A stretch of 42,158 bases of DNA from IMG/VR virus record IMGVR_UViG_3300033150_000759, positions 1-42,158 of that record. One strand, 5' to 3'. The DNA comes from a virus. Of this stretch, positions 2,050-31,185 are shown piece by piece; within the stretch, counting starts at the first letter, position 1; each line of letters starts with the position of its first letter. The translations under genes were made by a program, and so were the position numbers. The notes under the pieces were generated by a model, which was not told the origin of the DNA, searched no databases, and saw nothing but the letters and a program-made list of their open reading frames with translations.

Positions 2050-2051
2050 CT

Positions 2052-4027: not shown

Positions 4028-4032
4028 ACCCC

Positions 4033-4062
4033 TTGACAGACGTAACATTAATATGATATAAT
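4033..4062 (+). promoter_or_regulatory. Consensus sigma-70 promoter with extended -10 (copy 1)
   Basis: TTGACA at 4033-4038, an 18-base spacer and TATAAT at 4057-4062 preceded by TGA, making an extended -10. A transcript would start near 4069 and read the + strand genes from 4083. The copies at 13181 and 28979 share the -35 hexamer, the following GA, the 18-base spacer and the TGN extension. Confidence 0.85.
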
Positions 4063-4082
4063 TATAACAGCAGAAGAAAAAG

Positions 4083-4324
4083 ATGAAAATAGCTAACCTT
4101 CCAGATATGGAACGCAAAGTAATGAGAGCAATAATCAAAGCATGGATATTTAAGAATGGAAAAAATATTCCTACGGATATAGGACTTGAACAAAGATGTG
4201 AAGTAGTTGAACAATTATTAGATAATTAGATAAAGGATTAGCACAGGTTATTTATTATGAAAATGAAGGAACTTATAATATTCACGTAACTGAACAAGGC
4301 AGAAAAGTTATAGAAGGAAAATAA
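4083..4324 (+). pseudogene. Frameshifted small protein, possibly winged-helix
   Basis: The first 48 codons (MKIANLPDMERKVMRAIIKA onward to EVVEQLLDN) end at TAG 4227-4229. The -1 frame beginning TTA at 4226 continues LDKGLAQVIYY, then GTYNIHVTEQGRKVIEGK to TAA at 4322-4324. Joined, the two halves give about 80 residues with the helix-helix-beta-hairpin pattern of a small winged-helix DNA-binding protein (inference). One missing base near 4225 explains the break. The local sequence is not a canonical slippery heptamer, so I favour mutation or sequence error over programmed frameshifting. It is the first gene after promoter copy 1. Confidence 0.55.
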
Positions 4325-4326
4325 AA

Positions 4327-4975: not shown

Positions 4976-5255
4976 AAAAAGAGAGATAAATAAAAAATTA
5001 GTTATTGTTCTTTCAAATGTTGAACTTAGTCAAAAATTAAGACAACATATCTATGAATTTATTAATGCTTATAATTGGATGATGTCACTTGGCGTAAGCC
5101 CTAAAATATTATCATTTTTTAAAGTAGGATATGATAAGCTTATTGAAGAATTCAAAGGAGCAAGAGATTATATTGTAAGCGAAAAAGAAAGAAAAGAATT
5201 TTTGAAATTAATGCGAAAAAATTTCTTAAAAGATAATGGAAAAGATAAGAAATGA
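4956..5255 (+). CDS. Hypothetical helical protein (99 aa)
   Basis: The ATG at 4956 (MAKGNNRKRE) has GAAAGAAGG seven bases upstream. It is preferred over an ATG nine codons earlier that lacks a site. The protein is basic and helical (VELSQKLRQHIYEFINAYNW) and ends in charged residues. It overlaps the next gene by four bases (ATGA). Function unknown. Confidence 0.6.
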   Translation: MAKGNNRKREINKKLVIVLSNVELSQKLRQHIYEFINAYNWMMSLGVSPKILSFFKVGYDKLIEEFKGARDYIVSEKERKEFLKLMRKNFLKDNGKDKK

Positions 5256-9472: not shown

Positions 9473-10072
9473 ATGTTTAAATTTGTTAAAGTTATAGCTC
9501 AATATAAAAATTGTAGAGCATTTGCTCCAGCCTGGTATCTTTTGATTGAAAATATAGAAGACTTATTTTTATATTTTGAACAAACAAATCCAGAATTAGT
9601 AAAAACTTATCATCATATGAAAACAGAACACGGCGATTGTAGTATGGGAAGACACCCCGACACAAACCATGAGTACGCAATATATTGTACATTCTTTACA
9701 AATAATAATAATAGAAAAACTGTTATTGATGATATGTTTCATTTATCTGATACATTTTGTAGACCTAAAATAAACGCAATACTAAATGGTGAAAAAATAT
9801 TGATTAATCGAACAACAATGGGTTTTACATATTATAATAAAAAACATCACTCAATAATAGAAAAACAAAAAACCAATCAGTTTATATTTCCAAACGAAAA
9901 ATATACAGAAAAAGATATTCGTATAATTAAATGGGAAAATGGAACACATTACTATGCAAAAATTGGCAGAATTGATGTATTTATAGATGGTGAGCAAAAA
10001 TGGGACACTAAAAAAGAAGCTCAAGAAAAGGCATTAAAATTTTTAAAAGAGGAGATAACTAATTATGAGTAA
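9473..10072 (+). CDS. Hypothetical protein (199 aa)
   Basis: Mixed alpha/beta protein with a histidine-rich middle (TYHHMKTEHGDCSMGRHP) and a C-terminal region ending in a strand-rich module and a helix (KEAQEKALKFLKEEI). An AAGGAG ribosome site is present. Overlaps the RNA ligase gene by 8 bases. I do not recognise the family; the His/Cys cluster may bind a metal. Confidence 0.65.
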   Translation: MFKFVKVIAQYKNCRAFAPAWYLLIENIEDLFLYFEQTNPELVKTYHHMKTEHGDCSMGRHPDTNHEYAIYCTFFTNNNNRKTVIDDMFHLSDTFCRPKINAILNGEKILINRTTMGFTYYNKKHHSIIEKQKTNQFIFPNEKYTEKDIRIIKWENGTHYYAKIGRIDVFIDGEQKWDTKKEAQEKALKFLKEEITNYE

Positions 10073-11168
10073 ATTAATTGTTGAAGCATGTAAGATAGAA
10101 AAAGTCGAGAATCATCCTAATGCAGATAGACTTGATATTGTAACTGTAAAAGGATGGAATTGTATTGTAGGCAGAGATAATTATAAGGTAGGCGATGTAG
10201 TTATTTATTGTCCGCCCGATAGTGTTATTCCTGATGATATAATCGAGAAGTATAATCTGGAATATTTAAAGAAGAACGGACGTGTTGGAACTGTTAAACT
10301 TCGTGGTTATATTTCCCAGGGTCTTATTCTTGATATTCCGAAGGAGTTTTCCAGATACGCAAAGGTTGGCATGGACTTCGCTAAAATGCTTAAAATCACT
10401 AAATATGAGCCCCCTACACCATCTTTTCAGCAAAGTACGGGTAAAATCACTAAGAAGAAGAAAAATCCCCTATTTGACCGTTATACAGAAATTGAGAACA
10501 TTAAGAATTATAATGGGGTATTTCAGGATTGCGACGATGTAGTTATCACAGAAAAGATTCATGGAACTAATTTCCGAGCAGGTATTTTAGATATATCTCC
10601 AGGTAAAGGAATTATAGGTAAACTAAAATTCTTGTTCCAGAAATATATACTGAAACAATCTAAAGAGTTTGTTTATGGTAGTCATAATGTACAATTGGGA
10701 GCTTTTAGTCGTAGAACATTTTATAAGAAAAACGTTTATGCAGAAATTGCCAAACGTTACGATTTAGTTAATAAGCTCAATACTACAGGTGCACAAAATA
10801 TAATTATTTATGGAGAAATTTATGGAGCAGGTATTCAGAAAGGATATGAGTATGGATTAGAAGACATAGATGTAGTATTTTTTGACGTTAAAATCAATGG
10901 AAGATACATGTCTTTTGATGAATTCGAATTGTTTTGTAAGTCTCGTAATTTACCAATCGTGCCTGTACTATATGAAGGAGATTATTCTGAAGAAATAAGA
11001 CAAAAATATAGCAAAGGAAAATCTATTTTATGTCCAAAACAAAAAATAAGAGAAGGTTGTGTTATCAAATCTTTGTTCGAGGAAAATAATCCAAGAGTTG
11101 GACGAAAGATTTTAAAGAGTGTTAATGATGATTATTTATTAATAAAAGATAGAACTGACTATAAATAA
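10065..11168 (+). CDS. RNA ligase, DRB0094/Rnl5 type
   Basis: ATP-dependent RNA ligase that seals nicked RNA via an enzyme-adenylate. Residues 1-110 form the N-terminal OB-like domain of the DRB0094 family (VEACKIEKVENHPNADRLDI and VGDVVIYCPP). The adenylyltransferase domain has motif I EKIHGT with nucleophile Lys164, motif III IIIYGEIYGAG near residue 247, and a motif IV-like EGCVIKS near the C-terminus. The 367-aa length suits the family, whose member from Deinococcus seals 3'-OH RNA in duplexes. It could repair host or phage RNA cut by host defence nucleases (inference). C-ending codons are more frequent here than in neighbours. GAGGAG precedes the start. Confidence 0.88.
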   Translation: MSKLIVEACKIEKVENHPNADRLDIVTVKGWNCIVGRDNYKVGDVVIYCPPDSVIPDDIIEKYNLEYLKKNGRVGTVKLRGYISQGLILDIPKEFSRYAKVGMDFAKMLKITKYEPPTPSFQQSTGKITKKKKNPLFDRYTEIENIKNYNGVFQDCDDVVITEKIHGTNFRAGILDISPGKGIIGKLKFLFQKYILKQSKEFVYGSHNVQLGAFSRRTFYKKNVYAEIAKRYDLVNKLNTTGAQNIIIYGEIYGAGIQKGYEYGLEDIDVVFFDVKINGRYMSFDEFELFCKSRNLPIVPVLYEGDYSEEIRQKYSKGKSILCPKQKIREGCVIKSLFEENNPRVGRKILKSVNDDYLLIKDRTDYK

Positions 11169-11177
11169 GGAGCAATC

Positions 11178-11366
11178 ATGGCTCAATACAATTTTAAATT
11201 TGATGTATTTGATATGGTAATTATAAAAGCTCTTGATGTTCCTGGTAGAGTAGTTGCTATTAAAGTTGTTGGACATAATATATTTTATTCAATAGAATAT
11301 TGGTGGAAAGGCACAATACAATCAGTAGCTTTATATGAAGATGAATTATCTAAGGTGAAATCATGA
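11178..11366 (+). CDS. Small beta-rich hypothetical protein (62 aa)
   Basis: MAQYNFKFDVFDMVIIKALD followed by a PGRVVAI strand and a YEDELSKV ending. This is the layout of small SH3-like barrel proteins frequent in phages. AAGGAG lies upstream, with a four-base overlap to the next gene. Function unknown. Confidence 0.65.
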   Translation: MAQYNFKFDVFDMVIIKALDVPGRVVAIKVVGHNIFYSIEYWWKGTIQSVALYEDELSKVKS

Positions 11367-11683
11367 ACATTATTAAATTTTCACATAATTGGAATAAAAA
11401 ATTGTCACAAGAGATATTTACAACTATTCGAAAGTATGACAATAAGAAATGGAATTATTATAAAAGCCAAGAAAATAATAATTTCCATGTAATGTTAAAT
11501 AATGACCATATAAATAATGCAAAATTATTAAGTGTAGAATATTTGATATTTAATGAATTACCAAAAGCCCTTATATGTTCTGATACTGGATTAAGTTATA
11601 AAGAAGCATTAGGGGTTTTTCGTAAATTTGGAATAACTATACATGATAGAGTTTTAGTATTAACATTCAAATCTATTTATTAA
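11363..11683 (+). CDS. Hypothetical protein (106 aa)
   Basis: Starts MNIIKFSHNWNKKL and combines a helical start with later strands (VLVLTFKSIY at the end). No motif seen. Its start overlaps the stop of the preceding gene (ATGA). Confidence 0.6.
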   Translation: MNIIKFSHNWNKKLSQEIFTTIRKYDNKKWNYYKSQENNNFHVMLNNDHINNAKLLSVEYLIFNELPKALICSDTGLSYKEALGVFRKFGITIHDRVLVLTFKSIY

Positions 11684-11696
11684 TGGAGTTTTAATT

Positions 11697-11843
11697 ATGT
11701 ATAAAATTATTGTTTCTTTTAAAGACGGTAAAAAGATAGAAGATACTTTTCAAGAGTATGATAAGGCTTGTCACGCTTGTAGTGAGATGTGGAGGCGATA
11801 TACAAATATTCTTAGAGTATCAGTTGTGGAGGTTAAAAAATGA
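11697..11843 (+). CDS. Small hypothetical protein (48 aa)
   Basis: MYKIIVSFKDGKKIEDTF followed by a helix with CHAC and a final strand RVSVVEVKK, a complete beta-alpha-beta unit. A TGGAG site precedes the start. The stop overlaps the next ATG by four bases. Confidence 0.55.
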   Translation: MYKIIVSFKDGKKIEDTFQEYDKACHACSEMWRRYTNILRVSVVEVKK

Positions 11844-11959
11844 ATCTATTTGAAAAAATATTTCTATTTGGATGGACATTATTTATAATTTGGGCATGGA
11901 TTCAAACGGAGTGGGAATATGATATTAGTATAAGAGAATCTGAAGAACGATTAAATTAG
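11840..11959 (+). CDS. Tiny single-helix membrane protein (39 aa)
   Basis: Hydrophobic helix at residues 8-20 (FLFGWTLFIIWAW) with an acidic C-terminal half. GTGGAGG is found 9 bases before the ATG. It sits just upstream of the transporter gene and could be an accessory membrane peptide (inference). Confidence 0.5.
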   Translation: MNLFEKIFLFGWTLFIIWAWIQTEWEYDISIRESEERLN

Positions 11960-11980
11960 AAAAAATATTTAGGAGTTAAA

Positions 11981-13198
11981 ATGACTAAAGATAGACAAAT
12001 ACCATTCTTGACATACCTATTCTTTATATTAGTCTATGCAAATCAGGGAGTCTCAGGACTTCCCGCACCTTCTATTTATTATCTTACGAGGGAAACCTGG
12101 CATTTATCTGCTACAATGCTCGGAATAATTCCGTTCATTGCTGGATTAGCGTGGTATATAAAACCAGCATTTGGTATTTTAACTGACTATTTTCCTATTA
12201 ATAATTATCGTTCTAAATATTATTTATTAATAAATTATTGCTTAATATTAATAGCTGGTTTATATGTCATCTTTTTTGGATTTAATATATGGTCTTTGGT
12301 TATTGTTACATTTTTGATAAATATGGCAATAGCTTGTAATGATGTAGCGAATGATACTCAAATGGTTATACTCGAACAAAAGTATGATTTAAAAGGAAAA
12401 ATACAGGCTTTACAATGGACAAGTTTAGGTATAGTTGGGGTTTTAGTTTCAGTATTGGGTGCTTTTATTGCTGATAAATTACCTGAGCCGATTAATTATA
12501 AAGTAGCTTATATGCTCTTTCTTTTATTGCCAGCAGGAACATTATATTATTTGACTAAAATATATAAAGAAGAACCGATTAAAGAAAAGAAAAAAATTAG
12601 TAATTTAAAAATAGATTTTAGTAAACTTAAAGATAGGGATTTTATACTGGGAATTATATTCATTTTTTGTTTGATGTTTTCACCTTCTTTTGGAAAGGCG
12701 TTAATGATAAAATTAAGAGAAGAAATGGGAGTCGCTAAGATGTTTTTAGGTTGGGTAGATGCAGTTGGTGGTGCTCTGGGAATCGTAGGATATATTTTAT
12801 ATTATTGGAAAGCCCATAAATTTTCTATTAAAAAACTATTATATTTTGCTGTTATATTTTCAGCTATAACTAATTTATTTTATTTATGGATACCGAATCA
12901 GTGGATATTATTATTATATACTATTATGTTTAGTGCTTTTAGTGGAATAGCATTTTTAACTATTCTTGCTTTCATAGCAAAAATTGTACCACAAGGATGT
13001 GAAGGATTATTTTATGCACTGGCAACAAGTGTAAATAACTTTGCTGGCAAGCTAAGTGGCGTCTTTGGAGGCGTATTATATGATAATTTTGGATATAATG
13101 TAAATGTAATAGTTGCAACAGGTTTCACACTTGCTTGTTTATTATTTATCCCTCATTTACAAATAAAAAGTGCAAAATACTTGACAGAAGTAACATAG
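11981..13198 (+). CDS. MFS transporter of the folate-biopterin (BT1) type
   Basis: 405-residue polytopic membrane protein with about 12 hydrophobic helices and a charged central loop at roughly 200-225 (KEEPIKEKKKISNLKIDFSK). Family features include IKPAFGILTDYFPI after helix 2, ACNDVANDTQMV, and the late GLFYALATSVNNFAGKLSG segment. These match the BT1/folate-biopterin transporter branch of the major facilitator superfamily. Members carry folates, pterins or related compounds across the plasma membrane. TAGGAG precedes the start. A full-length, intact transporter is unusual in a phage. The substrate is inferred from family resemblance only. Confidence 0.75.
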   Translation: MTKDRQIPFLTYLFFILVYANQGVSGLPAPSIYYLTRETWHLSATMLGIIPFIAGLAWYIKPAFGILTDYFPINNYRSKYYLLINYCLILIAGLYVIFFGFNIWSLVIVTFLINMAIACNDVANDTQMVILEQKYDLKGKIQALQWTSLGIVGVLVSVLGAFIADKLPEPINYKVAYMLFLLLPAGTLYYLTKIYKEEPIKEKKKISNLKIDFSKLKDRDFILGIIFIFCLMFSPSFGKALMIKLREEMGVAKMFLGWVDAVGGALGIVGYILYYWKAHKFSIKKLLYFAVIFSAITNLFYLWIPNQWILLLYTIMFSAFSGIAFLTILAFIAKIVPQGCEGLFYALATSVNNFAGKLSGVFGGVLYDNFGYNVNVIVATGFTLACLLFIPHLQIKSAKYLTEVT

Positions 13199-13210
13199 AT
13201 ATGATATACT
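13181..13210 (+). promoter_or_regulatory. Consensus sigma-70 promoter with extended -10 (copy 2)
   Basis: TTGACA at 13181-13186, an 18-base spacer and TATACT at 13205-13210 preceded by TGA. The -35 lies within the last codons of the transporter gene. Predicted start is near 13217, and the first gene begins at 13251. Nearly the same sequence as the promoter at 4033, including the GTAACAT spacer. Confidence 0.85.
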
Positions 13211-13250
13211 TGTAATAGGGGAGAAATCTCAAAAGATAAAGGAGAAAAGT

Positions 13251-13427
13251 ATGGAATGTACCAAGTGCGGAAATAAAGATATTAATGAATTCGAATTAGC
13301 TTCAGACAAAGCTACCATTGGAAACCAACCTAATCAACCATTAAAGAAAAAATGTTTAAAATGCGGAGATATTAGTAATGTATCTATGCCTGAATTTTGC
13401 GAATTTGAAAGATATGAGGATGATTGA
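13251..13427 (+). CDS. Small zinc-ribbon protein (58 aa)
   Basis: MECTKCGNKDINEF with a second pair CLKCGD, a compact zinc ribbon with an acidic tail. AAAGGAG sits 6 bases before the ATG, and the gene is the first after promoter copy 2. It could be an early regulatory or RNA-polymerase-binding protein, but nothing in the sequence proves this. Confidence 0.65.
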   Translation: MECTKCGNKDINEFELASDKATIGNQPNQPLKKKCLKCGDISNVSMPEFCEFERYEDD

Positions 13428-13429
13428 TT

Positions 13430-13501
13430 ATGAAACAAGAAGTAATTTTAAAGAAAATAGAAAATTTAGGGGAAAATAAAAACAATAAAAAGAAAGGATA
13501 A
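13430..13501 (+). CDS. Very small ORF (23 aa)
   Basis: MKQEVILKKIENLGENKNNK then KKG. It begins three bases after the previous TGA and is lysine/asparagine-rich. The composition may be random in this AT-rich genome; listed because no other gene fills the gap. Confidence 0.25.
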   Translation: MKQEVILKKIENLGENKNNKKKG

Positions 13502-13505
13502 TATT

Positions 13506-13877
13506 ATGCCATATATCAAAGGAGACGACGGAAGAAGAGAAGCTCTACAAAAGGGAGAACCTGCACAGAACGCAGGAGAATTAAATTATCAGATTTTTTA
13601 TTATACTAAGTATATTGCTAAAGATGCAAAAGAACACAGAATTCGAGAGGCTATTACTAATTTTGTAAAGAATTTTATAGGAGAAAATCCTAATTATCAA
13701 AAATATAATGATATGACAGGTGCTCTTATAAGATGTGAAAGAGAAATAAAAAGACGATTGACTTCTTTTACTGCCCATGTTATAGCAAATGGAATATTAC
13801 CAGATATTCTTAATAGTTATGACGCAGAGATTAATGCTTACGAAGATACAAAAATAGAGTCTAATGGAGATGTATAA
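13506..13877 (+). CDS. Conserved phage protein of unknown function (123 aa)
   Basis: Starts MPYIKGDDGRREAL, has a central GELNY motif and ends with a (P/A)YE..KI..NGDV pattern. This arrangement recurs in many phage and prophage hypothetical proteins (I believe the family called DUF6899, from memory). Largely helical. AAAGGATAATATT precedes the ATG. Function unknown; conservation suggests a general phage role. Confidence 0.7.
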   Translation: MPYIKGDDGRREALQKGEPAQNAGELNYQIFYYTKYIAKDAKEHRIREAITNFVKNFIGENPNYQKYNDMTGALIRCEREIKRRLTSFTAHVIANGILPDILNSYDAEINAYEDTKIESNGDV

Positions 13878-14023
13878 TGAATAATCCTATATTATTAATA
13901 TTAATCTTCTTTCAAATATTGGTAGCAATTTATTATTTTATTAATCATGGATTATTTTTAGGTTTGTTATTTATTATATATGCGTTAGGAAATGTTATTA
14001 CTTTATTTTTAAAAATCCAATAG
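13877..14023 (+). CDS. Small two-helix membrane protein (48 aa)
   Basis: Almost wholly hydrophobic: helix one near residues 4-21 (PILLILIFFQILVAIYYF), helix two near 25-45 (GLFLGLLFIIYALGNVIT). Its ATG overlaps the previous TAA by one base. It could act in the cell membrane; too little sequence to assign a function. Confidence 0.6.
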   Translation: MNNPILLILIFFQILVAIYYFINHGLFLGLLFIIYALGNVITLFLKIQ

Positions 14024-14032
14024 GAGTTTGAT

Positions 14033-14311
14033 ATGAAAATAGAAGAAATGTTAAATAAAATTTTTTTAGAAACCAAAAACGGATTTGAATATGTAAAAGA
14101 AATACCTGATAAGTCTATAGATATGATACTTTGCGACTTACCTTATGGAACTACTGCTTGTAAATGGGATAGTGTTATCCCCCTTGGTTTATTATGGAAG
14201 CAATATAAAAGAATTATTAAAGATAATGGGGCTATTGTATTAACAGCAAGTCAGCCATTTACCAGTGCTTTAATAATGAGTAATCCAAAAATGTTTAGAT
14301 ATTGCTTATAA
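14033..14311 (+). pseudogene. Truncated DNA adenine methyltransferase (92 aa)
   Basis: The N-terminal half of a phage-type N6-adenine DNA methyltransferase is clear. It has [17 protein letters not shown], with DLPY replacing the usual DPPY catalytic motif, then [20 protein letters not shown] and [12 protein letters not shown]. The frame stops (TAA 14309-14311) where family members continue into a C-terminal half containing the rest of the catalytic and target-recognition region. No continuation is seen in other frames before the next gene starts 20 bases on. A deletion remnant is the best reading. It retains a ribosome site (TAGGAGT), so a short product may still be made. Confidence 0.7.
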
Positions 14312-14331
14312 AAGATTAGAGGAGTTAGATA

Positions 14332-15285
14332 ATGATAAATAATTATGAAATAATAGAATATAAATCTGAAGCTCACCCAGATACTTTAACAGACCTTATA
14401 GTAGAAGAATGTGCTACCACTTTAGATAAATATTATAAGAGAAAGTATGGTAAAGTACTGCATTATAATGTAGATAAAGCTGTGTTTCTTGCAGGGGATG
14501 TGAATATTTGGTATGGAGGCGGTGAAATTGTCAAAGACCCTTGTTTTATTTTAGCAGGTCAAGCTACAAATATAAACGAAAAATTAAAGTTAATTTTAAC
14601 TAAAGTTATTAGAAAAACAGTAAACAAATATTTGCCGAAATTAGAATCTTTTAACATTGAAATAAGAACAAACAATACTTCTCAAAATTTAAACAGCATT
14701 GCTAAAGAAACCGAAATACTATCAAATGATACTTCTTTTGGGGTGGGTTATTATCCTTTTTCTGATAATGAAGAAAAAGTATTTGCGATAAAAAAAGAAT
14801 TAGATAGAATGATTAAAGAACATAAAATACCTGTCGGAGAACTTTATAAAATAATGCTAACACCAAAAACTATATCTATTTCTGCCCCTTTGTATGCACA
14901 AGAAGTTAAAAATAGAGAATCATATGCTCATTACAAAAAACAAATAGAACAAAAATTATCTAATTATGGTAATATTATTTTTAATCCTGACTTTGAAAAT
15001 AGTTATCCTTATTTAACATTGTGCGGAAGTAGTATAGAATGTGGAGATGACGGACAAGTAGGTAGAGGGAATCGTTATAATGGATTAATTACACCTTGTA
15101 GACCAATGACTATAGAAGCATATCATGGTAAAAACAATAAAAATCATGTTGGTAAATTGTATTCTAAATTAGCATTTGAAAGGGCACAAGAGATATATAA
15201 GAAAACAAATAAATATACTGAAGTGATATTAGTAAGTAAAATAGGTAAACCAATAACAGAATACGAGGAGTATATAAAACAATGA
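14332..15285 (+). CDS. mat: S-adenosylmethionine synthetase, archaeal type
   Basis: Makes S-adenosylmethionine from methionine and ATP. The sequence follows the archaeal MAT family rather than bacterial MetK. It has AHPD at 14-17 (family GHPD), KYGKVLHYNVDKA, WYGGGEIV, DTSFGVGYYPF, and late in the protein SIECGDDGQVGRGNRYNGLI with RPMTIEA and KNHVGKLYS. At 317 aa it is shorter than the roughly 400 residues of archaeal enzymes but keeps both ends. It overlaps the MT-A70 methyltransferase by four bases, suggesting that it supplies methyl donor to that enzyme or compensates for host SAM destruction. GAGGAG precedes the start. Family assignment is strong; activity is inferred. Confidence 0.88.
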   Translation: MINNYEIIEYKSEAHPDTLTDLIVEECATTLDKYYKRKYGKVLHYNVDKAVFLAGDVNIWYGGGEIVKDPCFILAGQATNINEKLKLILTKVIRKTVNKYLPKLESFNIEIRTNNTSQNLNSIAKETEILSNDTSFGVGYYPFSDNEEKVFAIKKELDRMIKEHKIPVGELYKIMLTPKTISISAPLYAQEVKNRESYAHYKKQIEQKLSNYGNIIFNPDFENSYPYLTLCGSSIECGDDGQVGRGNRYNGLITPCRPMTIEAYHGKNNKNHVGKLYSKLAFERAQEIYKKTNKYTEVILVSKIGKPITEYEEYIKQ

Positions 15286-15869
15286 AAAAATATCAGATTA
15301 TATATGCCGACCCCCCCTGGACATTTAAAACATACAGTTTAAAAGGAAAAAAATATAAGTCTGCCGAATGTCATTATAATTGTATGTCTAAACGTGCAAT
15401 TCAAGATATTCCTGTTAATTTATTGGCAGATGATAATTGTGTTTTATTTTTATGGGTAACTTTTCCTTGTTTGTTAGAAGGACTTGAATTAATTAAAAAA
15501 TGGGGGTTTACTTATAAAACTTGTGCATTTACTTGGGTTAAAAAAAATAAAAAATCAGATAGTTATTTTTGGGGGTTAGGGTATTGGACAAGGTCGAACG
15601 CAGAATTATGTTTATTAGCAACTATTGGTAATCCAAAACGTATTTCTTGTTCTGTTCATCAAATTATAGACGCTAAAATAAGAAAACATTCACAAAAACC
15701 AATAGAAGTTAAAGATAAAATTGTTAAACTTATGGGAGATTTGCCTCGTATTGAATTATTTGCAAGAGAAAAAACACAAGGATGGGATATAATTGAAGGA
15801 AAAGATAATGCAGATGGGACTGGTAATGATATAATAACGTGGATAAATAGAAGGTATAAAAATGAATAA
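15282..15869 (+). CDS. MT-A70 family adenine-N6 methyltransferase
   Basis: Transfers methyl from SAM to adenine N6 in DNA or RNA. Catalytic DPPW is at residues 10-13, followed by an aromatic WTFKTYSLKG. A family HSQKPIEVKDKIVKLMG motif and IELFAREKTQGWD lie near the C-terminus. The 195-aa size is typical of phage and bacterial MT-A70 enzymes. Four-base overlaps with the SAM synthetase upstream and 8 bases with the next gene tie the three together. Genome methylation to evade restriction is the usual role; the recognition sequence cannot be read from the gene. Confidence 0.88.
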   Translation: MKKYQIIYADPPWTFKTYSLKGKKYKSAECHYNCMSKRAIQDIPVNLLADDNCVLFLWVTFPCLLEGLELIKKWGFTYKTCAFTWVKKNKKSDSYFWGLGYWTRSNAELCLLATIGNPKRISCSVHQIIDAKIRKHSQKPIEVKDKIVKLMGDLPRIELFAREKTQGWDIIEGKDNADGTGNDIITWINRRYKNE

Positions 15870-16812: not shown

Positions 16813-17458
16813 GAATTATTTTAATATTTTTTGTGAATTAGTAGCAGACCAATTTCGTTATGGCGGTAAAAAGTATGCCTATTCAGGAACAAGAGAGAGT
16901 ACGGATGTTCTTTTTGATAAGCACGGAAAAAATTGGCTATTTGGTACAATAGATAAATATACTTTCAGATTTAAAAATTGTAAAAGAGAAAAAGACCTTT
17001 TAAAAATTGCTTGTTATATGTATATTCTTTGGCTTAAAAGAGGTTTTTATATTATGGAACGTGGCATAAATGACCCAGCTATCGATACAAATGTCAAAAC
17101 AAAATTAGAACAATATACAACTTTCTTAAAGAAATTAGAAGGTAAACAGCAATTTATTGATGGATTGAACTTATCTAATAAAGAGATGGAAGAATCTAAA
17201 GTTCCAACTGAATTATTAGATGAAACAACTATTTTGACAAATAATCCAGATGACCTTTATTTTACTGATAGTTTTTTTGTACAAGCAACATCTCGATTAT
17301 TAGGCAGATTTTCAGAAATAGAATGGAAAGATATATCTGAATCTGACCTTATTAAAATTTTTGCTTTTGCTTATACTCTTTGGTACAGAAATTTTAAAGA
17401 TAAAGCAGGACAAGATACTGATACTTGGTTGGAGGATAAATTTAAGAATGAAAAATAA
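16802..17458 (+). CDS. Conserved phage protein with an internally repeated segment (218 aa)
   Basis: Residues about 6-70 (ADQFRYGGKKYA and KHGKNWLFGTIDKYTFRFKN) are followed by EKDLLKIACYMYILWLKRGF. A second copy of the last motif, ESDLIKIFAFAYTLWYRNF, is near residues 179-197. I recall similar proteins in large phages but no assigned function. The repeat suggests two related helical units. GGGAGG overlaps the end of the previous gene as ribosome site. Confidence 0.65.
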   Translation: MESKNYFNIFCELVADQFRYGGKKYAYSGTRESTDVLFDKHGKNWLFGTIDKYTFRFKNCKREKDLLKIACYMYILWLKRGFYIMERGINDPAIDTNVKTKLEQYTTFLKKLEGKQQFIDGLNLSNKEMEESKVPTELLDETTILTNNPDDLYFTDSFFVQATSRLLGRFSEIEWKDISESDLIKIFAFAYTLWYRNFKDKAGQDTDTWLEDKFKNEK

Positions 17459-17645
17459 ATGTATCAATAAACAAAAAATGAATATAAAAGAACATATTGC
17501 AAGATTAAAACAATTTTTAAATTCTGATTATTTAGATGGATTAATAAGTTTTTGGCAAGATAAGTCTGCAAAGGATATGTTTGAGGAAGATGTAAAAATA
17601 TTACTTCAAGCATATGAAGACTTAAAAAGGAAAAAATATGATTGA
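17448..17645 (+). CDS. Small hypothetical protein (65 aa)
   Basis: Start MKNKCINKQKMNIKEHIARL overlaps the previous gene by 11 bases, with GGAGG 12 bases upstream. An alternative ATG at 17478 would give 55 aa. Helical, acidic middle and lysine-rich end. No family recognised. Confidence 0.5.
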   Translation: MKNKCINKQKMNIKEHIARLKQFLNSDYLDGLISFWQDKSAKDMFEEDVKILLQAYEDLKRKKYD

Positions 17646-18630
17646 AAATAAAAAAAGTAAAATAATATTTCTTGATTTCGGAATTTTTATGTTTCGTCCG
17701 ATTAAATCTTATAGTGCACAAGTGCGGGCGAAAATGGAAAAGATTGACCAGATAGAACAAGAATTAAAACAAACTTCTAATTTCCAGAGACAAACTATAT
17801 TAAGAAAACAATTAGAAGAAACAAAAGACAGATTTGTTCTGCCTCCAGAATGGACATCTTTAAACATGATTCAGTCATGCTTGAAGCACGTTGGACTTAA
17901 TAAAGAAGACACTGTAATTATTGCTTGTGATTATGGGCATAGTTGGCGAAAAGATTATGACCAAAATTACAAAGCTAATCGTAAAGCATTAAGAGAAAAA
18001 GACCCATATGTAGATTGGAATAAAATGTTTAAGAGGTTTAATATACTTAGGGATAAAATTGATGAACATACTCCGTTTAGGGTTATTAAAGTACATAGAT
18101 TTGAAGCTGATGATATAATTGCTTATGGTACAGAATATTATAATGATAGGATATGTGTAATTGTATCTTCTGATAGTGATTATGAACAATTATGTGCAAG
18201 ACCTAATGTAAGGATATTCTCACCTATAAGCAAGAAATATAAATTAATAAAGAATCCTTATTTATTAATAGCCAAAAAAGTTAAAAAAGAAGCTTCAGAT
18301 AATTTACTTACTCCTGTATTAAGTGAAGAGGATTATAAAACAAGAATGTTATTAGTTAATCTTCTTGAACTCCCTGAGTTTGTTACATCAACTTTAAAAC
18401 CATACTATGATGAATTACTTTTAGACAATAAAGAATTTCATTACGATAAAATACCTTATCAAAGTATGCAAAAAAGATTTAAAGAAATTTACGATAAAAA
18501 TAAAGAAGTCGATTATGATAAATGTATTGAAAAAATAGTCAAAAAAGAACAGCGTCAAAGAAAGAAAAAAATTAAAGAAAAGAAGAATCAAACTAAGAAA
18601 GGAGCAAATAATGGAAAAGAGAATAGTTAA
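17638..18630 (+). CDS. 5'-3' exonuclease / flap endonuclease-like protein
   Basis: PIN-like nuclease related to the 5' nuclease of DNA polymerase I and T4 RNase H, which removes RNA primers and flaps. Acidic residues are visible in IIFLDFGIFMFR near residue 10, IACDYGHSWR near 96, RFEADDIIAYG near 156, and VIVSSDSDYEQL near 175. WRKDYDQNYKANRKALR contains the basic helical-arch residues. The C-terminal 50 residues are very lysine-rich. The gene overlaps the following gene by 20 bases. With PolB, PrimPol and ligase-like functions it belongs to the replication set. Confidence 0.85.
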   Translation: MIENKKSKIIFLDFGIFMFRPIKSYSAQVRAKMEKIDQIEQELKQTSNFQRQTILRKQLEETKDRFVLPPEWTSLNMIQSCLKHVGLNKEDTVIIACDYGHSWRKDYDQNYKANRKALREKDPYVDWNKMFKRFNILRDKIDEHTPFRVIKVHRFEADDIIAYGTEYYNDRICVIVSSDSDYEQLCARPNVRIFSPISKKYKLIKNPYLLIAKKVKKEASDNLLTPVLSEEDYKTRMLLVNLLELPEFVTSTLKPYYDELLLDNKEFHYDKIPYQSMQKRFKEIYDKNKEVDYDKCIEKIVKKEQRQRKKKIKEKKNQTKKGANNGKENS

Positions 18631-19060
18631 GTTGGCGAGAACCAAATCTATGATGGTTATAGATGTTGGTGATGGAAAAGAAGTATGGGCAAATACTTCT
18701 AAGAAAGTGTATGATTATGCTAAAAAAGTTCTGAAATTGGGCGATAATAATAAAGTACTTGAAGATGTTGACTTTGAATTTGAAAATAAGAATGGTCAAT
18801 ATTTTGTAACTCGTATTCATAAAGGTGGCGTACAAGGAGGCGAGAAGTCTCAGGAAGGAAGTCAAGAACCGCCAAAAAGTACTTCATCTCTTAAAAGTCA
18901 AGAACAATCAACAGGCGTATATACGCCAGATTTAACTGAAGTTGCAAAAGCTTTAAATAATATTGCAGTAGGGTTGGTAATTGTTGGACTTACTGGACAA
19001 GTAGACCCTAATAATGTTAGTACTTTAATAAGTACTATTAAAACAGAATTGAATAAATAA
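18611..19060 (+). CDS. Hypothetical protein with beta-rich N-domain and flexible linker (149 aa)
   Basis: Residues 1-75 look like a small beta-barrel (LARTKSMMVIDVGDGKEVWA, DFEFENKNGQYFVTRI). They are followed by a Gln/Ser/Pro-rich linker (GSQEPPKSTSSLKSQEQS) and a hydrophobic helix (NNIAVGLVIVGLTGQ). The layout (compact fold, linker, short tail) is reminiscent of phage ssDNA-binding proteins, but no conserved motif confirms this. AAAGGAG precedes the start. It is the last gene before the structured RNA. Confidence 0.5.
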   Translation: MEKRIVKLARTKSMMVIDVGDGKEVWANTSKKVYDYAKKVLKLGDNNKVLEDVDFEFENKNGQYFVTRIHKGGVQGGEKSQEGSQEPPKSTSSLKSQEQSTGVYTPDLTEVAKALNNIAVGLVIVGLTGQVDPNNVSTLISTIKTELNK

Positions 19061-19084
19061 TCTCTGTACCTCTTACCTTAACGA

Positions 19085-19223
19085 TGGTAATTGATTTATT
19101 GATTGTGGTAAAGAGTGTAGATTCGTTATCTACTTTGAGCTATAGGAAGGCTACGCCTAATCATGAGGGTGCAACCCAGGGATAACCAACCCAACATCAT
19201 GATAATTGATAAATCAGTTACCA
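19085..19223 (+). ncRNA. Candidate structured RNA with 22-bp closing helix
   Basis: Bases 19085-19106 pair without interruption with 19202-19223: 22 pairs, of which four are G-U. G-U pairs would not be kept by a DNA-level palindrome and point to RNA folding. The enclosed 95 bases contain a GTAGAT/ATCTAC hairpin (117-122 with 128-133 of 19xxx), an AGGC-TAC-GCCT hairpin (19148-19158), and a TCATGA/TCATGA helix (19161-19166 with 19197-19202, sharing its last base with the closing stem). Inside that helix are GGGT-GCA-ACCC and GGG...CCC mini-hairpins. The stretch is richer in G+C than its surroundings and contains no good ORF. It ends 25 bases before the protease ATG, so it may be a cis leader or a processed small RNA. 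It matches no riboswitch or ribozyme that I recognise. Confidence 0.7.
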
Positions 19224-19247
19224 CCACTAAAGATTGGAAGTGATAAA

Positions 19248-20342
19248 ATGAAGATTGCAGATACATTAAAAAGAGTTATCAAAATTATTTTGAAAGGGAC
19301 AATAAAAATATTTAAGTTTTTAGGAAAGGGTATTATAATTGTTTCAATTGTAGGTAGTTTTATTCTTAATATAAATGTAAATATGGCATTAACAGATTTT
19401 TTTAGAAATCAAATAACATTAGGTACTACACAACAACTTACAAGTGAATGTTTACAAGACGTTGCCAGGAGTGTTGTGCGTGTACAAGAAAGTTATGTAA
19501 TACTTGACAAAAAAGCAAAAGAATCTTATGTAGAAATAGAGAAGAAACTGAATACAAATAAAACTAAGATTGAAAATACAGTAACTTCTATTAAAGAATT
19601 ATCTAAAGATTTGAATACAATATCTGTTTATACGGAAGACCAAGCAAAATTATTAGACGAATTAACTAAACAGATTGAAATATATAAACGACCAGATTAT
19701 AAATATTTAAAGAATGTTACAGTTATTGTTTTTGGGAAATATCTTACAGAGAACGAACCAGTTGATTCTGAAAAACCATTAAATTACAAGAAAGATACAA
19801 GATATTGGGGAGGAACTGGAACAGTAGTAAAAATTACAGAAGATTACACTTATATATTAACTAATAAACATGTTACTGGCATTTCTGAAATAAAAGACAA
19901 GGATAAAGTTCTTTTACAAATAAAAGCAGATAAATTAACACTACCTGTTCCTGCTGAAATTGTTAAAATAGCAAGATTTTATGATTTGGCATTATTAAAG
20001 GTAACAGGTAAATTATACAATAAAGAAGCAATTAAAGGTATAGATTTTCCAGAAGACGCAGAAAAAGTTTATACTATAGGGCACCATGCAAGTAGAGCAT
20101 TTCTTTATGGAGAAGGTGTTTATAGTTGTACTGATGGATTATCTACAGTATTCCAGTTGCCTTGTATGTGGGGATGTTCTGGTTCAGGAGTATTTGATAA
20201 AGATGGGAATTTAATAGGAGTAGTTTTTTCTTTAAAAATTGTACAAATCGAAGGGTTAGGTTTAGTTACAGATATTACTCATGCTAATGCAGTTCCTACT
20301 CTTTTTATAAAGCAATTTCTGAAGGGAATAATAGATGAATAA
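19248..20342 (+). CDS. Membrane-anchored trypsin-like serine protease
   Basis: The ATG at 19248 has GGAAG seven bases upstream and is the proper start. One transmembrane helix spans about residues 26-44 (KGIIIVSIVGSFILN). A likely coiled coil follows at 75-150, then a chymotrypsin-fold domain from about 155. The catalytic triad reads His208 in LTNKHVTG, Asp246 in FYDLALLKV, and Ser311 in GCSGSGVF (commonly GNSGGP). No PDZ domain is seen, unlike DegP/HtrA. The 364-aa protein probably faces the periplasm or outside. The structured RNA lies immediately upstream. Role unknown: processing of host envelope proteins or superinfection control are possibilities. Confidence 0.8.
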   Translation: MKIADTLKRVIKIILKGTIKIFKFLGKGIIIVSIVGSFILNINVNMALTDFFRNQITLGTTQQLTSECLQDVARSVVRVQESYVILDKKAKESYVEIEKKLNTNKTKIENTVTSIKELSKDLNTISVYTEDQAKLLDELTKQIEIYKRPDYKYLKNVTVIVFGKYLTENEPVDSEKPLNYKKDTRYWGGTGTVVKITEDYTYILTNKHVTGISEIKDKDKVLLQIKADKLTLPVPAEIVKIARFYDLALLKVTGKLYNKEAIKGIDFPEDAEKVYTIGHHASRAFLYGEGVYSCTDGLSTVFQLPCMWGCSGSGVFDKDGNLIGVVFSLKIVQIEGLGLVTDITHANAVPTLFIKQFLKGIIDE

Positions 20343-20562
20343 AAATGAGTTTAAATGTATATGTTGTAAAAGAGTTTTATCTATTAATAAATTAGGAAAG
20401 ACAATAGGCAAAGATGATTATTGTATTAAATGTATAGATGAAATTAGAAGTGCATTTAGTTATCATATAGGCGGAGCGGAAATAACAAAACAACATTATG
20501 ATAGTATTAAAAAACGAGGATATGTAATAAATGAGGAATTAGATAAAGACAGGATAAAATAA
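20335..20562 (+). CDS. Small zinc-binding protein (75 aa)
   Basis: FKCICCKRVLSINK and YCIKCIDEIRS form a four-Cys zinc site, followed by a helix-turn region SAFSYHIGGAEITKQHYDSI. It overlaps the protease stop by 8 bases and the MgtC-like gene by one. Role unknown. Confidence 0.55.
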   Translation: MNKNEFKCICCKRVLSINKLGKTIGKDDYCIKCIDEIRSAFSYHIGGAEITKQHYDSIKKRGYVINEELDKDRIK

Positions 20563-21023
20563 TGTTACAACAATATTTAATTAAATTGCTTGAATTACCG
20601 AATTTTTATATTGCAGAAAGATTATTGGTCTCTTTATTATTAAGCGGACTAATTGGTGCTGAACGAGAGCGTAATGATAAACCAGCAGGGATTAGAACAA
20701 TTATGATGATTTGTTTAGGGGCAACTTTAATTGTTATATTAACACTCGAATTTAATAAAATGTATGATAATTTCGATATGATGAGACCACTTGCGTATTA
20801 TTTAGTTGGTTGGGGATTTTTAGGTGGAAATATTATCAATAGAATAGGTAGAAGTAAACTTGAAGGGATTACTACTGCATCTTTATTGTTACCATTATCA
20901 GTTATAGGTTTTTTTTGTGGAATAGGAGAAATAGTATTGGCTTGTATAGGAACGTTGCTTATTTATTTTATTTTGAATATTAAATATATTCAAATAAAAT
21001 TTAATGAAATGAAAGGAATTTAA
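20562..21023 (+). CDS. MgtC/SapB-family membrane protein
   Basis: Inner-membrane protein with about four or five helices. Conserved family elements are LLSGLIGAERERNDKPAGIR near residues 28-47, then CLGATLIVI, GWGFLGGNII, and EGITTASLLLPLSVIG. MgtC proteins modulate F1Fo-ATPase, membrane potential or Mg2+ homeostasis in bacteria; the longer C-terminal cytoplasmic domain of Salmonella MgtC is absent here (153 aa). TAA/ATG overlap with the previous gene. A phage copy could adjust host energetics during infection (inference). Confidence 0.82.
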   Translation: MLQQYLIKLLELPNFYIAERLLVSLLLSGLIGAERERNDKPAGIRTIMMICLGATLIVILTLEFNKMYDNFDMMRPLAYYLVGWGFLGGNIINRIGRSKLEGITTASLLLPLSVIGFFCGIGEIVLACIGTLLIYFILNIKYIQIKFNEMKGI

Positions 21024-21260
21024 GTGGTAAGAAAAGAAAAAAACGCAGAAATAATCACTAATCATCGAATAATGAAATGTTGGACATGTGAAGGATATGG
21101 TGGTTATTATTTATTAAATAATCCCAATAAAAGAGGATTTAGAAAAATGAGATATAAAACTTGTCCTGCATGTAAAGGCAAAGGGACATTTACTGAAAAA
21201 CATTATTTTATTATTGACAAGAAAAATAAAATAGCTTTTAGTGGAGATACAATAAAATAA
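21024..21260 (+). CDS. DnaJ-like zinc-finger protein with GTG start (78 aa)
   Basis: Two CxxCxGxG units, CWTCEGYG near residue 19 and CPACKGKG near 48, resemble half of the DnaJ zinc-binding domain. There is no J-domain. The GTG at 21024 follows AAAGGAATTTAA. Such lone DnaJ-type fingers are known in small plant and phage proteins and suggest protein binding or redox activity, not proven here. Confidence 0.65.
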   Translation: MVRKEKNAEIITNHRIMKCWTCEGYGGYYLLNNPNKRGFRKMRYKTCPACKGKGTFTEKHYFIIDKKNKIAFSGDTIK

Positions 21261-21273
21261 ACAAGGAGACCTA

Positions 21274-24200
21274 ATGGATTATCAGAATACAATATTATCA
21301 CGCTTGTTAGATTATTTACAATTAAAGAAATGGAAAATCCAAAAACGTGGTATGGTTGTTATGGTATTATGTCCATTTTGTAAACATGAACCAAAACTAA
21401 AATCATATTCAGCTAATATTATTCCACGTACTTCTAAAATTAATTGTTTTAATTGTAAAAAAACTTATAATTTAATTGATATTGTTCGTGAGATTGAGCC
21501 TGATAAAAAAGATATGGAAGAAGAGGATATATATCAATATTTAAAAACAAGTTTAAAGTTAGATATTGTCACGGAAAAAGACCAAGAAAATCTTAAAGAT
21601 TTATTAGATTTTTTTGAAACAAGTAAATTTTCTTTAGTTCCATTGGGCAGAAAATCTAAACGTCCAATAGAAAAAGGTTGGACAGAAAAAGAGCATAAAG
21701 ACCGCAAAGAATGGGAAGATTGGTTACGTAATAATTTAAATATTGCTATTAGAACTGGTTCAGTTAGTAATATAACAGTTATAGATGTAGATACAAAACC
21801 AATTCCAGAACAAATTAGAAAAATAATGGGCAATCCTTTTATACAAGAAACACATAGAGGTTTTCATTTAATTTATTTATATGAAGAATTATTACCTAAG
21901 ACAAGAATAGATGAATTTAGCATTGATATTGAAAATAATGGTGGATGTATAGCTATACATCCATCTATATGCCCAATAGAAGAAAAAGGTATAGATGAAA
22001 ATGGCAAAGCTTATTGTAAAATAATTGGATATGCACCAAGAAAATTTATAGGAGATTATAAATTAATAAAAATGCCAACAGAATTATTAAATTTTCTCAA
22101 AGAAAGAGTTACAGTACCTCGTAAAACTATTTCTGAACAAATAGCAGAAGATATTAAGACAGAAATATATAAAAAACCTCTTATTGATATGAATGAGGGA
22201 AGAAATGATTTATTTGTTCATTTAGGGGGCATGTTTAGAAAACAATTAAATCCAGAACAAACAGAATATGCGTTAAGAGTTTTAAATAAAGTTATATGTA
22301 AAACGGAATTAGACCCAAAAGAAATTACTGCAATGATGGGCAGTTTAGAGAGATATAATGATTTTGATGAACAAGAATTGGCACATAAAGTTTTAAATTA
22401 TTTACGTATAGTTGAAGTTGCTAATAGCAGAGACGTTAAAGAAGCTACAGGCGAAAAGAAAGCAACAGTAGATAAGATACTCAGTTATTTAGTTAAAGAA
22501 GGTTATTTAATTAAACGAGGAAGAAATTTTCATGTAGTTAAAAAGGTGGCTTGGGAAGAGAAGTTAATTGCTATGGGTAAACCAATAGGATTTAAAATGC
22601 CTTATTTTCACGATGTTGCTTATTTTAATTGGGGTGATATGCTTCTTATAGGAAGTAAAACTAAATATGGTAAATGTTTTGCAAAAGGTACGGAAATATT
22701 ATTATATAATGGAGAATCAAAAAAAGTAGAAGACATATTGCCTGGCGATTTACTTATGGGAATTGATAGCAAGCCCAGAAAAGTTGAAGATATTTGCGTT
22801 GGATATGACAATATGTATGAAATAATTCCTGATGAAAATTCTTCGTTTACTGTCAATAGCGAACATATTTTGGTATTAAAAAATACATTAACTGGATGTA
22901 TAATTAATATAACTGTTAAAGATTATTTAAAAAAACATAAGACATTTAAAAAATTTCATAAATTAATTCAGCAAGAAGTAGAATATAAAGATTCAAAAAC
23001 TGAATTAAATCCTTATTTTTTAGGTTTATGGTTAGGAGACGGAGACTCTTGTAGTGTAAGAATAACCAACAAAGATAAGGAAATAATTAATTTCTTAGAA
23101 AACTATGCAAAAGTACAAGGACTATCTTTACATAAATATAAATATGGAATTAAGTGCCCATCTTATGCTATAGTATCTGAATCAAGAAACAAACGAAATA
23201 CTGTTCAAGAATCTTTACAAAATCTTAGTTTGTATAATAATAAACATATCCCAAAACATTATCTATTAAATTCTCGACAAAAAAGATTAGAATTATTGGC
23301 AGGATTAATAGATAGTGATGGTTATTTAATCCGAACAAAAACTTCTTATGAAATTATTAATAAAAAAGAACAATTAGTTAATGATATTGTTACATTAGCA
23401 AGGTCTTTGGGATTTATAACAAAAGTTAATCCAAAATATATAAAATTAGGAAAAACACCTTTTAAGATTTTAAAATACTTTCGAATTACAATTAAAGGAG
23501 ATTGTTCGATAATTCCTACTAAAGTTAAAAGAAAACGTGCAATTAAATCTAAAAAAATAAAATATAATTCATTACTGAGATTTAAAGTAATAAAAAAATT
23601 TAAAAATAAATATTATGGATTTCAGGTAGAAAAAGATAAAATGTATTTACTCAAAAATTATATAGTTAATCATAATACACATATAGCTATGAATATGGTT
23701 AAGCGATTAGTAGATGTAGGAATAAAACCTTATTATTTGTCATTAGAGACTGGAAGTAGATTCGCTAAAATTGCATTGCAATTAGGACTTAAAGAAGGAG
23801 ATTTTTATCATGCGTTTTGTGCAGACCCAACTAAAATAGAACTTGAACCAAATTCTGTTACAATTATTGACTGGTTATTGATAACAGATAAGGCGAAGAC
23901 AGATTTAGTGTTTAAACATTTTGTAGAACAATTAGCAAAAACAAAAGGATTTCTCATTATTTTTCAACAATTAAAAGATAGATTTCCACAGAAAAAGAAT
24001 CCTACTCCAAGAGATAAGGCAGATTGGTTTGCCCCTAATATGGTTAGACAATTTCCTGCATTGGCTACAATGTATTTATATGATGATGATAATGACGGAA
24101 CTTATGGGAGATTTTATATTGAAGCAGTGAGAGAACCAAAGCAAATAGGAAAGAAAATATGGCAAATTCCTTGTGTTTATGATGGAGCAAGTAAAGAACT

Positions 24201-24336
24201 AAAAAGAATAGATGAACTAAAACAAAATTTATCACAGGCACAAACATCAATGTTACCACCAACTGTTCCAAATAATTCTACAAATCAGCCTGTTCAGAAC
24301 AATCAGAATCCACCAAAGTCTAAAGGAGAAAACTAA
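21274..24336 (+). CDS. Bifunctional primase-polymerase / helicase with intein
   Basis: 1020-aa precursor. A zinc finger (Cys33, Cys36, Cys58, Cys61) is followed by a Prim-Pol domain at about 110-280. That domain has the catalytic pair Asp171 and Asp173 in VIDVDT, His198 in RGFHLIY and a SIDIENNGG strand with Asp218. A winged-helix-like linker sits at about 380-450 (ATVDKILSYLVKEGYLIKRG), then a RecA-fold ATPase. Its P-loop GSKTKYGK^T is interrupted after Lys467 by an intein (residues 468-801) and resumes with Thr802. Walker B-type VTIIDWLLITD and a FLIIFQQLKDR strand follow. The tail is Gln/Asn/Pro-rich. After splicing the mature protein would be about 686 aa. It should prime and unwind DNA at the phage fork together with the PolB at 32332. 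GGAGACC precedes the start. Confidence 0.88.
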   Translation: MDYQNTILSRLLDYLQLKKWKIQKRGMVVMVLCPFCKHEPKLKSYSANIIPRTSKINCFNCKKTYNLIDIVREIEPDKKDMEEEDIYQYLKTSLKLDIVTEKDQENLKDLLDFFETSKFSLVPLGRKSKRPIEKGWTEKEHKDRKEWEDWLRNNLNIAIRTGSVSNITVIDVDTKPIPEQIRKIMGNPFIQETHRGFHLIYLYEELLPKTRIDEFSIDIENNGGCIAIHPSICPIEEKGIDENGKAYCKIIGYAPRKFIGDYKLIKMPTELLNFLKERVTVPRKTISEQIAEDIKTEIYKKPLIDMNEGRNDLFVHLGGMFRKQLNPEQTEYALRVLNKVICKTELDPKEITAMMGSLERYNDFDEQELAHKVLNYLRIVEVANSRDVKEATGEKKATVDKILSYLVKEGYLIKRGRNFHVVKKVAWEEKLIAMGKPIGFKMPYFHDVAYFNWGDMLLIGSKTKYGKCFAKGTEILLYNGESKKVEDILPGDLLMGIDSKPRKVEDICVGYDNMYEIIPDENSSFTVNSEHILVLKNTLTGCIINITVKDYLKKHKTFKKFHKLIQQEVEYKDSKTELNPYFLGLWLGDGDSCSVRITNKDKEIINFLENYAKVQGLSLHKYKYGIKCPSYAIVSESRNKRNTVQESLQNLSLYNNKHIPKHYLLNSRQKRLELLAGLIDSDGYLIRTKTSYEIINKKEQLVNDIVTLARSLGFITKVNPKYIKLGKTPFKILKYFRITIKGDCSIIPTKVKRKRAIKSKKIKYNSLLRFKVIKKFKNKYYGFQVEKDKMYLLKNYIVNHNTHIAMNMVKRLVDVGIKPYYLSLETGSRFAKIALQLGLKEGDFYHAFCADPTKIELEPNSVTIIDWLLITDKAKTDLVFKHFVEQLAKTKGFLIIFQQLKDRFPQKKNPTPRDKADWFAPNMVRQFPALATMYLYDDDNDGTYGRFYIEAVREPKQIGKKIWQIPCVYDGASKELKRIDELKQNLSQAQTSMLPPTVPNNSTNQPVQNNQNPPKSKGEN
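22675..23676 (+). mobile_element. Intein with LAGLIDADG homing endonuclease
   Basis: Residues 468-801 of the primase-helicase (334 aa). N-terminal splice block CFAKGTEILLYNG begins with nucleophile Cys468, and a later block near residue 530 contains NSEHIL with the block B histidine. Two dodecapeptide motifs, LGLWLGDGDS (about 583-592) and LAGLIDSDGYL (about 674-684), mark the endonuclease. The C-terminal junction is YIVNHN followed by extein Thr802. Insertion is between GK and T of the Walker A motif, so the helicase cannot bind ATP until splicing is complete. The frame is unbroken and key residues are intact, so it is probably active. Confidence 0.92.
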
Positions 24337-30015: not shown

Positions 30016-31185
30016 ATGGAAAAGATATGTATTCCCAAAAAAGGTAAGTCTTCTGTTGTGATGATATATGTACCAATTGGCTCTCGATTTGAGTCAGATA
30101 ATATTAAAGGTATCAGTCACTTTACAGAACATATGATGTTTAAAGGTACAAAGAAACGTACAGCTAAACAAATTGCTACTGAAATAGAAAAGTATGGCGG
30201 ATATATTAACGCTTTTACAGGCGAAGAAATGACATGTTATATTGTTGAAATTGCCAATCGTTATAGAGATAAAGCTGAAGAAGTTTTAATGGATATGCTT
30301 CATAATTCTGTTTTTGATTCTAAAGAAATTAATAAAGAAAGGGAAGTTATTATTCAAGAAATAAAAATGTATGAAGATAATCCTATTGAAGCTACTTGGG
30401 ACAAATTTAATAAAGAAGTATTTTTAAGTCAATCTGGTTTACATATGCCTGTTGGCGGTACAGAAAAAACAGTTCGTAATATTACTCGTAAAGATTTTCT
30501 TGACTTTTATAAAGTTAATTATCGACAAATGAGTATTATTCAAGTTGGAGAAGTTTCTGCTATCGAAGAATTAAGCATACCTACAAAAATTCCTTTTCCA
30601 GAACCTATAAATCCTATTTATACTGATAAGAAAAAGAACGTCTATTTAACTCCAAGAAAAGATGTTCAGCAAGCTAATGTTATTATTGGCTATGCACTAA
30701 ATTTATATGACATACCTGTAATAGATAGATTCTTTTCTAATCATCTATTAAAAGGTATTTATAATGGCATGGCAGGAAGATTATTTACCGAAATAAGAGA
30801 AAAACATCATTTAGTTTATAGAGTTAAATTTATTCCAGAAGATTTTATTGGCGTTACTTCTAAATGGGCAGTTTCTTTAGGATTAGAAGCATCTAAGATT
30901 AATAAAGCAAGAGATTTAGTTATTAAAGAATTATTAAAGCCTATTACTAAGAAAGAAATTAATTATAGCATTAATAAATTTTTAGGAAAGGTAGAAATTG
31001 ATTTAGATGACCCACAAACTACTGCAAGATTAATTGCACACGTACGTAATTTAGGAATAGATATTAAAGAAGTTTTATATAATTATAAATATTATATCAT
31101 TAAAGCATCTAAACATATAAATAATTATGTAAAAAAATTAAACTTTAACGAACACGTGGTCGTAGGAATAGTGCCAGAAAAATAA
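30016..31185 (+). CDS. M16-family zinc metallopeptidase
   Basis: Related to insulinase, pitrilysin and mitochondrial processing peptidases. The inverted zinc motif HFTEH is at residues 35-39 (SHFTEHMMFKGT), and the third ligand is probably Glu115 in EREVIIQEI, 76 residues on, as in active family members. GGYINAFTGEEMTCY follows the motif as usual. The C-terminal half contains GMAGRLFTEIREKHHLVYRV, which corresponds to the second M16 domain. At 389 aa it is a two-domain enzyme of the bacterial YmxG/PqqL-short type. It has no signal peptide, so it is probably cytosolic. AAGGAG precedes the ATG. M16 enzymes are unexpected in phages. Confidence 0.88.
   Translation: MEKICIPKKGKSSVVMIYVPIGSRFESDNIKGISHFTEHMMFKGTKKRTAKQIATEIEKYGGYINAFTGEEMTCYIVEIANRYRDKAEEVLMDMLHNSVFDSKEINKEREVIIQEIKMYEDNPIEATWDKFNKEVFLSQSGLHMPVGGTEKTVRNITRKDFLDFYKVNYRQMSIIQVGEVSAIEELSIPTKIPFPEPINPIYTDKKKNVYLTPRKDVQQANVIIGYALNLYDIPVIDRFFSNHLLKGIYNGMAGRLFTEIREKHHLVYRVKFIPEDFIGVTSKWAVSLGLEASKINKARDLVIKELLKPITKKEINYSINKFLGKVEIDLDDPQTTARLIAHVRNLGIDIKEVLYNYKYYIIKASKHINNYVKKLNFNEHVVVGIVPEK

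Follow-up and report, generated by a model that had tools for sequence, protein, structure and literature searches.

What is the long inverted repeat that lies between two genes of this uncultured phage: a discrete RNA, a signal within a messenger RNA, or a stretch of DNA with no RNA function? The window analyzed here is IMG/VR virus record IMGVR_UViG_3300033150_000759 over 42,158 nucleotides (the 42-kb fragment G000); the record is classed as linear and is probably a fragment. The repeat sits inside the non-coding gap 19061-19247, between two co-directional genes of the + strand (Table 1). An earlier note on this DNA had proposed that the gap encodes a novel structured RNA, and we asked how far that proposal holds.

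Table 1. Features of the locus, in window coordinates.
Feature	Positions	Strand	Description
Upstream gene	18611..19060	+	149 aa; homologues in relatives placed between exonuclease and primase-helicase
Left arm	19076..19106	+	19085-19106 form the 5' side of the uninterrupted 22-bp helix
Interior	19107..19201		95 nt, non-coding
Right arm	19202..19232	+	19202-19223 form the 3' side of this 22-bp helix
Downstream gene	19248..20342	+	Trypsin-like protease (PF13365, E 1.8e-13), N-terminal hydrophobic segment

Genomic setting of the element

The called genes that surround the element are all on the + strand; it is therefore expected to lie inside an operon transcript, in which it would fold. Replication genes adjoin it. 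The product of the upstream gene has no match in Pfam or PHROG. Its structural model (mean pLDDT 65) consists of an OB-fold-like N-terminal domain followed by two C-terminal helices, and the best, albeit weak, Foldseek matches to this model are cold-shock protein and IF1 (best E 0.09). On the basis of this medium-confidence model and these weak matches, the protein is predicted to be OB-fold-like. The ribosome-binding site of the downstream protease is a weak GGAAG at about 19236-19240, i.e., outside the helix. A 33-aa reading frame at 19084-19185 has no ribosome-binding site. The gap had been described as the largest gene-free one of the interior, but those at 4028-4326, 11684-11980, and 2050-2311 are larger (299, 297, and 262 nt, respectively).

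Elsewhere in the window, the Prim-Pol/helicase gene (21274-24336) is split within its Walker A motif by an intein that contains a LAGLIDADG homing endonuclease; the homologues in three relatives (L203, L173, and L202) have no such intein. Metabolic or accessory cargo is found at 10065-15869 and 30016-31185, including an RNA ligase, a BT1-family transporter, an M16 peptidase, and an S-adenosylmethionine synthetase that adjoins an MT-A70 methyltransferase.

Geometry of the inverted repeat

The 22 uninterrupted base pairs described earlier are exact; 18 are Watson-Crick pairs and four are G-U pairs (at 19091, 19100, 19101, and 19105), and the enclosed length was likewise given correctly, at exactly 95 bases. 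The 3' end of the helix is indeed close to the protease ATG at 19248, at a distance of 24 bases where the earlier note had 25. Among helices with a span of up to 250, this is the longest in the window.

The pairing does not end there. On both sides it extends outward to give an inverted repeat over 31 positions, which on the + strand comprises 23 Watson-Crick pairs, four G-U pairs that lie inward, and four A-C mismatches among the outer nine positions. A register scan of this repeat finds zero transversion mismatches; that is, all eight differences between the arms are transitions. With both arms included, the element measures 157 bp, and the gap would be 30 nt long if these were removed.

An inverted repeat that arose in the gap neutrally or by chance is improbable. 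In its favor, 40 dinucleotide shuffles of the whole window gave longest helices of 15-22 bp, with 22 reached by a single shuffle, and the coding sequence for a calcineurin-like phosphoesterase holds a perfect 17-bp inverted repeat whose halves are 92 nt apart (37632-37648/37741-37757). The 31-position repeat, however, surpasses every one of the 40 shuffles in two measures, the purine-pyrimidine-complementary run (31, against 28 in the best shuffle) and the inverted-repeat score, and non-coding gaps such as the one it occupies are few.

Folding on the two strands

The presence of G-U pairs had been taken to argue for selection on an RNA fold. Once the whole repeat is considered, this argument falls away. 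What reads as an A-C mismatch on the + strand becomes a G-U pair on the - strand, and there are four of each; therefore, the wobble pairs favor neither strand. Counting G-U pairs on one strand can mislead unless the repeat is traced to its full length. The folding energies are similarly balanced. The stretch 19074-19234, which spans the full repeat, has a z-score of -4.34 relative to shuffles on the + strand and of -4.34 on the - strand, while a shorter, 145-nt element has about -4.7 to -5.0 on the + strand and about -4 on the - strand. With the two strands so nearly equal in folding, the sequence offers nothing that sets the transcript strand apart. This strand-symmetric mismatch pattern and the neighboring replication genes would also suit a DNA-level site (a replication origin, recombination or packaging signal) that acts as a cruciform or protein-binding palindrome, but we consider this highly improbable, as nothing specific supports it and no relative examined carries the element at that place.

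Partition-function calculations give near certainty to only some 19 of the 22 pairs; the three innermost compete with other pairings. The pairing probability of the core helix stays near 1 even within 900 nt of transcript context. The interior is a different matter. It had been said to hold several further hairpins, but its folding is within chance: taken alone, it has a z-score of -0.22 on the + strand, where 81 of 200 shuffles are as stable, and of -1.52 on the - strand. The 5' flank (UAACGA) might also have formed a pseudoknot with a hairpin loop (UCGUUA), but this attractive idea was rejected, since pairing between flank and interior is no better than with shuffled flanks (0.23). The composition of the interior is nevertheless unusual. 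Its G+C content is 45%, compared with 29% for the genome and 19-33% for the other gaps, which places it at the 99.8th percentile of 95-nt windows. Like the pairing of the core, this still favors something functional; it favors an RNA as well.

Comparison with known RNA classes

The earlier statement that the element fits no recognizable riboswitch, ribozyme, tRNA, or tmRNA is borne out: the window has no Rfam 15 match at gathering thresholds and chance matches only at a permissive E<=5, and ARAGORN detects neither a tRNA nor a tmRNA in it. An intrinsic terminator was rejected as well, since a consensus scan with a loop limit of 8 finds none on the + strand in 17000-21400, and no T-run follows 19223 or 19232. 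Promoter-like sites near the element do not exceed chance numbers. A new functional RNA family is possible, yet unsupported by any test run; a discrete 140-nt RNA is likewise possible.

The Y RNAs that accompany Ro in phages (YrlA, RF02553) resemble the element in that they are structured RNAs in the same genome neighborhood of related phages (L224 and G004). A Y RNA reading of the window was rejected, however, as G000 contains no Ro/TROVE gene (PF05731) and no YrlA match, and the loop motif GNUACUUC of the relatives' Y RNAs is absent from the gap. The arrays in the relatives are observations in their own right. In L224 (IMGVR_UViG_3300031586_000172), a tandem Y RNA-like array at 1955-2527 lies directly upstream of a Ro60/TROVE ORF (2528-4051, PF05731), and in L244 (of G004) another, at about 1100-1870, lies upstream of such an ORF at 1877-3415 (PF05731). 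One element per array holds a circularly permuted tRNA-like (YrlA) domain, recognized by eye in L244 and by RF02553 in L224, with a score of 44.9 bits (E 8e-9) that falls short of the gathering score, 69.

The element in relatives

Protein and DNA searches with the protease, the exonuclease, and RecA yielded no close relatives, and at most unrelated RecA loci. The lineage was instead reached with a DNA pattern for a polymerase motif, followed by helicase and polymerase alignments, and the closest relatives were found through the primase-helicase and the family-B polymerase. A covariance model built from the window element alone, i.e., from one sequence (R1), finds nothing credible in the loci or whole records of these relatives. 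Two weak hits of this model, in G028 (E 0.12) and in G031 (E 4.9), were rejected, as several pairs are broken and an ATG-like coding sequence stands at the start. The related records searched, which may lack those nearest to the window, contain no homologue in which covariation could be followed.

In one relative (G024/L276), the same two genes are neighbors, but the gap between them is only 18 nt. The element was therefore either gained in the line of the window or lost in this relative. In most other relatives, another gene occupies the place of the element. The possibility that the gap holds a remnant of the ClpP-like or DnaQ-like gene that relatives carry there was discarded, since no meaningful match was found. 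No comparable intercistronic duplex was found in about 430 kb of the relatives' sequence, and such duplexes are therefore not a general feature of these operons. Two other structures were noted among the relatives, namely a 23-bp hairpin with an 8-nt loop at L207 2836-2889, which partly overlaps a called ORF, and a very stable non-coding stretch on the reverse strand of L279 (G026; 203-517, z -5.85), ahead of the homologue of the window gene at 15862.

Folded gaps beside the OB-fold-like gene

Strongly folded gaps adjoin the homologue of the upstream gene in three relatives. In L203 the gap lies before the protease, as in the window; in L222 it is downstream of the gene, before the helicase; and in L214 it is upstream. 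The L203 element (IMGVR_UViG_3300037493_003182; 5138-5232) is an 89-nt, three-branched, cloverleaf-like fold followed by a T-run, with no match in Rfam. Its z-score is -6.06 on the + strand vs. -2.23 on the - strand, and that of its interior is -4.92 vs. -0.17. It is thus a better structured-RNA candidate than the element of the window. The gaps of L214 and L222 are folded on both strands. By eye, the loop of a hairpin in each of these (L214 3673-3803, L222 5126-5273) is also complementary to sequence farther downstream, and these may be pseudoknots.

The four phages with folded gaps all belong to one seven-member group of the helicase tree (support 80/87), and no such gap is found among the 22 others. 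This group, the placement beside homologous genes, the strand specificity in L203, the OB-like model of the neighbor, and the G+C-rich interior in the window all speak for a discrete, fast-evolving structured RNA, one of a set beside the OB-fold gene in this subclade and perhaps bound by the OB-fold protein. The clustering on the tree is not significant, however, with 70 of 500 shuffles giving a value as low; the elements of the window, L203, L222, and L214 have no common sequence and no covariance-model match, and a model built from the L203 element (R2) matches only itself; the interior in the window is folded no more than expected by chance; and the OB call comes from a medium-confidence model. 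On balance, we view this explanation as possible but doubtful, and the positional pattern beside the gene as a lead rather than a result. Distinctly unlikely is the more specific proposal that the gap belongs to a position-conserved, fast-evolving phage RNA family accompanying the OB-fold, cold-shock-like gene in one subclade, whose sequences have diverged beyond recognition and whose common plan is a closing helix around several branches.

Likeness to Correia elements

Correia elements (CREE or nemis), which are MITEs of Neisseria, are 153-157 bp long with 26-bp inverted repeats (PMC2649163, PMC10969869); in mRNA their ends pair and are bound or cleaved by RNase III (PMC2649163). The window element is 157 bp long, has arms of 31 rather than 26 positions, and is also intergenic. 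As is typical of such elements, inverted repeats at its ends flank a short non-coding core, and these ends too, if transcribed, would pair into an RNase III-type duplex. The differences are that it is single-copy, neither the window nor the other fetched loci holding another; that it has no target-site duplication, i.e., no flanking direct repeat of at least 4 bases within 8 bases of its edges; that neither CREE core end motif, CCGGTACGG or TCAGGACAA, occurs at the element within one mismatch; and that it resides in an unrelated phage. By analogy, it may work like a Correia element, which does not make it one; it is not filed as such because a second copy, a target-site duplication, and the core motifs are missing.

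A non-autonomous MITE-like or other palindromic DNA insert might also have no selected RNA function, so that the hairpin in the mRNA is a by-product. The eight transitions, which leave four G-U pairs on each strand, are what one would expect if once-identical arms drift regardless of strand, and the length of the element, its intergenic insertion, and the 18-nt gap in the relative fit as well. Against this stand the missing second copy and target-site duplication, and the fact that no transposase is recognized in the window; in 384 Omnitrophota genomes, there are short matches to the AT-rich arm, at chance level. On balance, an insert of this kind is an unlikely explanation.

A candidate processing or stability hairpin

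Duplexes of about two helical turns are classical substrates of RNase III. We favor the reading that the element, a 157-bp inverted-repeat insert, forms a hairpin in the operon mRNA that acts in cis on processing or stability; we prefer this over both a discrete RNA and a functionless MITE-like insert, while giving it somewhat less than an even chance. What the sequence shows are the two arms, their insert-like placement, and a predicted duplex; we infer the following course. The DNA-metabolism operon would be transcribed across the element, and the arms would pair in the mRNA to form a hairpin with 19-22 bp of uninterrupted duplex. Acting in cis, this duplex could be an RNase III-type site for processing or stability, at which cleavage would separate the exonuclease/OB mRNA from the protease mRNA and may alter their expression, while the protease ribosome-binding site would be left outside the duplex.

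There is precedent for such an arrangement, as RNase III processes RNAs of the phages lambda, T7, and T3 (PMC5371410). Their sites, like the element in the window, are intercistronic duplexes of about two turns in co-directional phage operons, with the downstream ribosome-binding site outside. The window differs in its large 95-nt interior and in that relatives have no such site at the equivalent place, and cleavage here is putative. Our preference follows from the RNase III-type duplex of about two turns, the T7/T3/lambda and Correia precedents, and the free protease ribosome-binding site. We also count in its favor the exact, beyond-chance helix, its core pairing probability near 1, and the 18-nt gap in G024/L276; we count against it the lack of a like duplex in relatives, the equal folding of the two strands, and the lack of a terminator T-run or an excess of promoter-like sites.

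If the element is a processing hairpin, it would be a further instance of operon punctuation in phages. Should folded RNAs truly go together with the OB-fold gene throughout this uncultured lineage, they would represent a new phage RNP, the study of which should start from L203 and not from the window.
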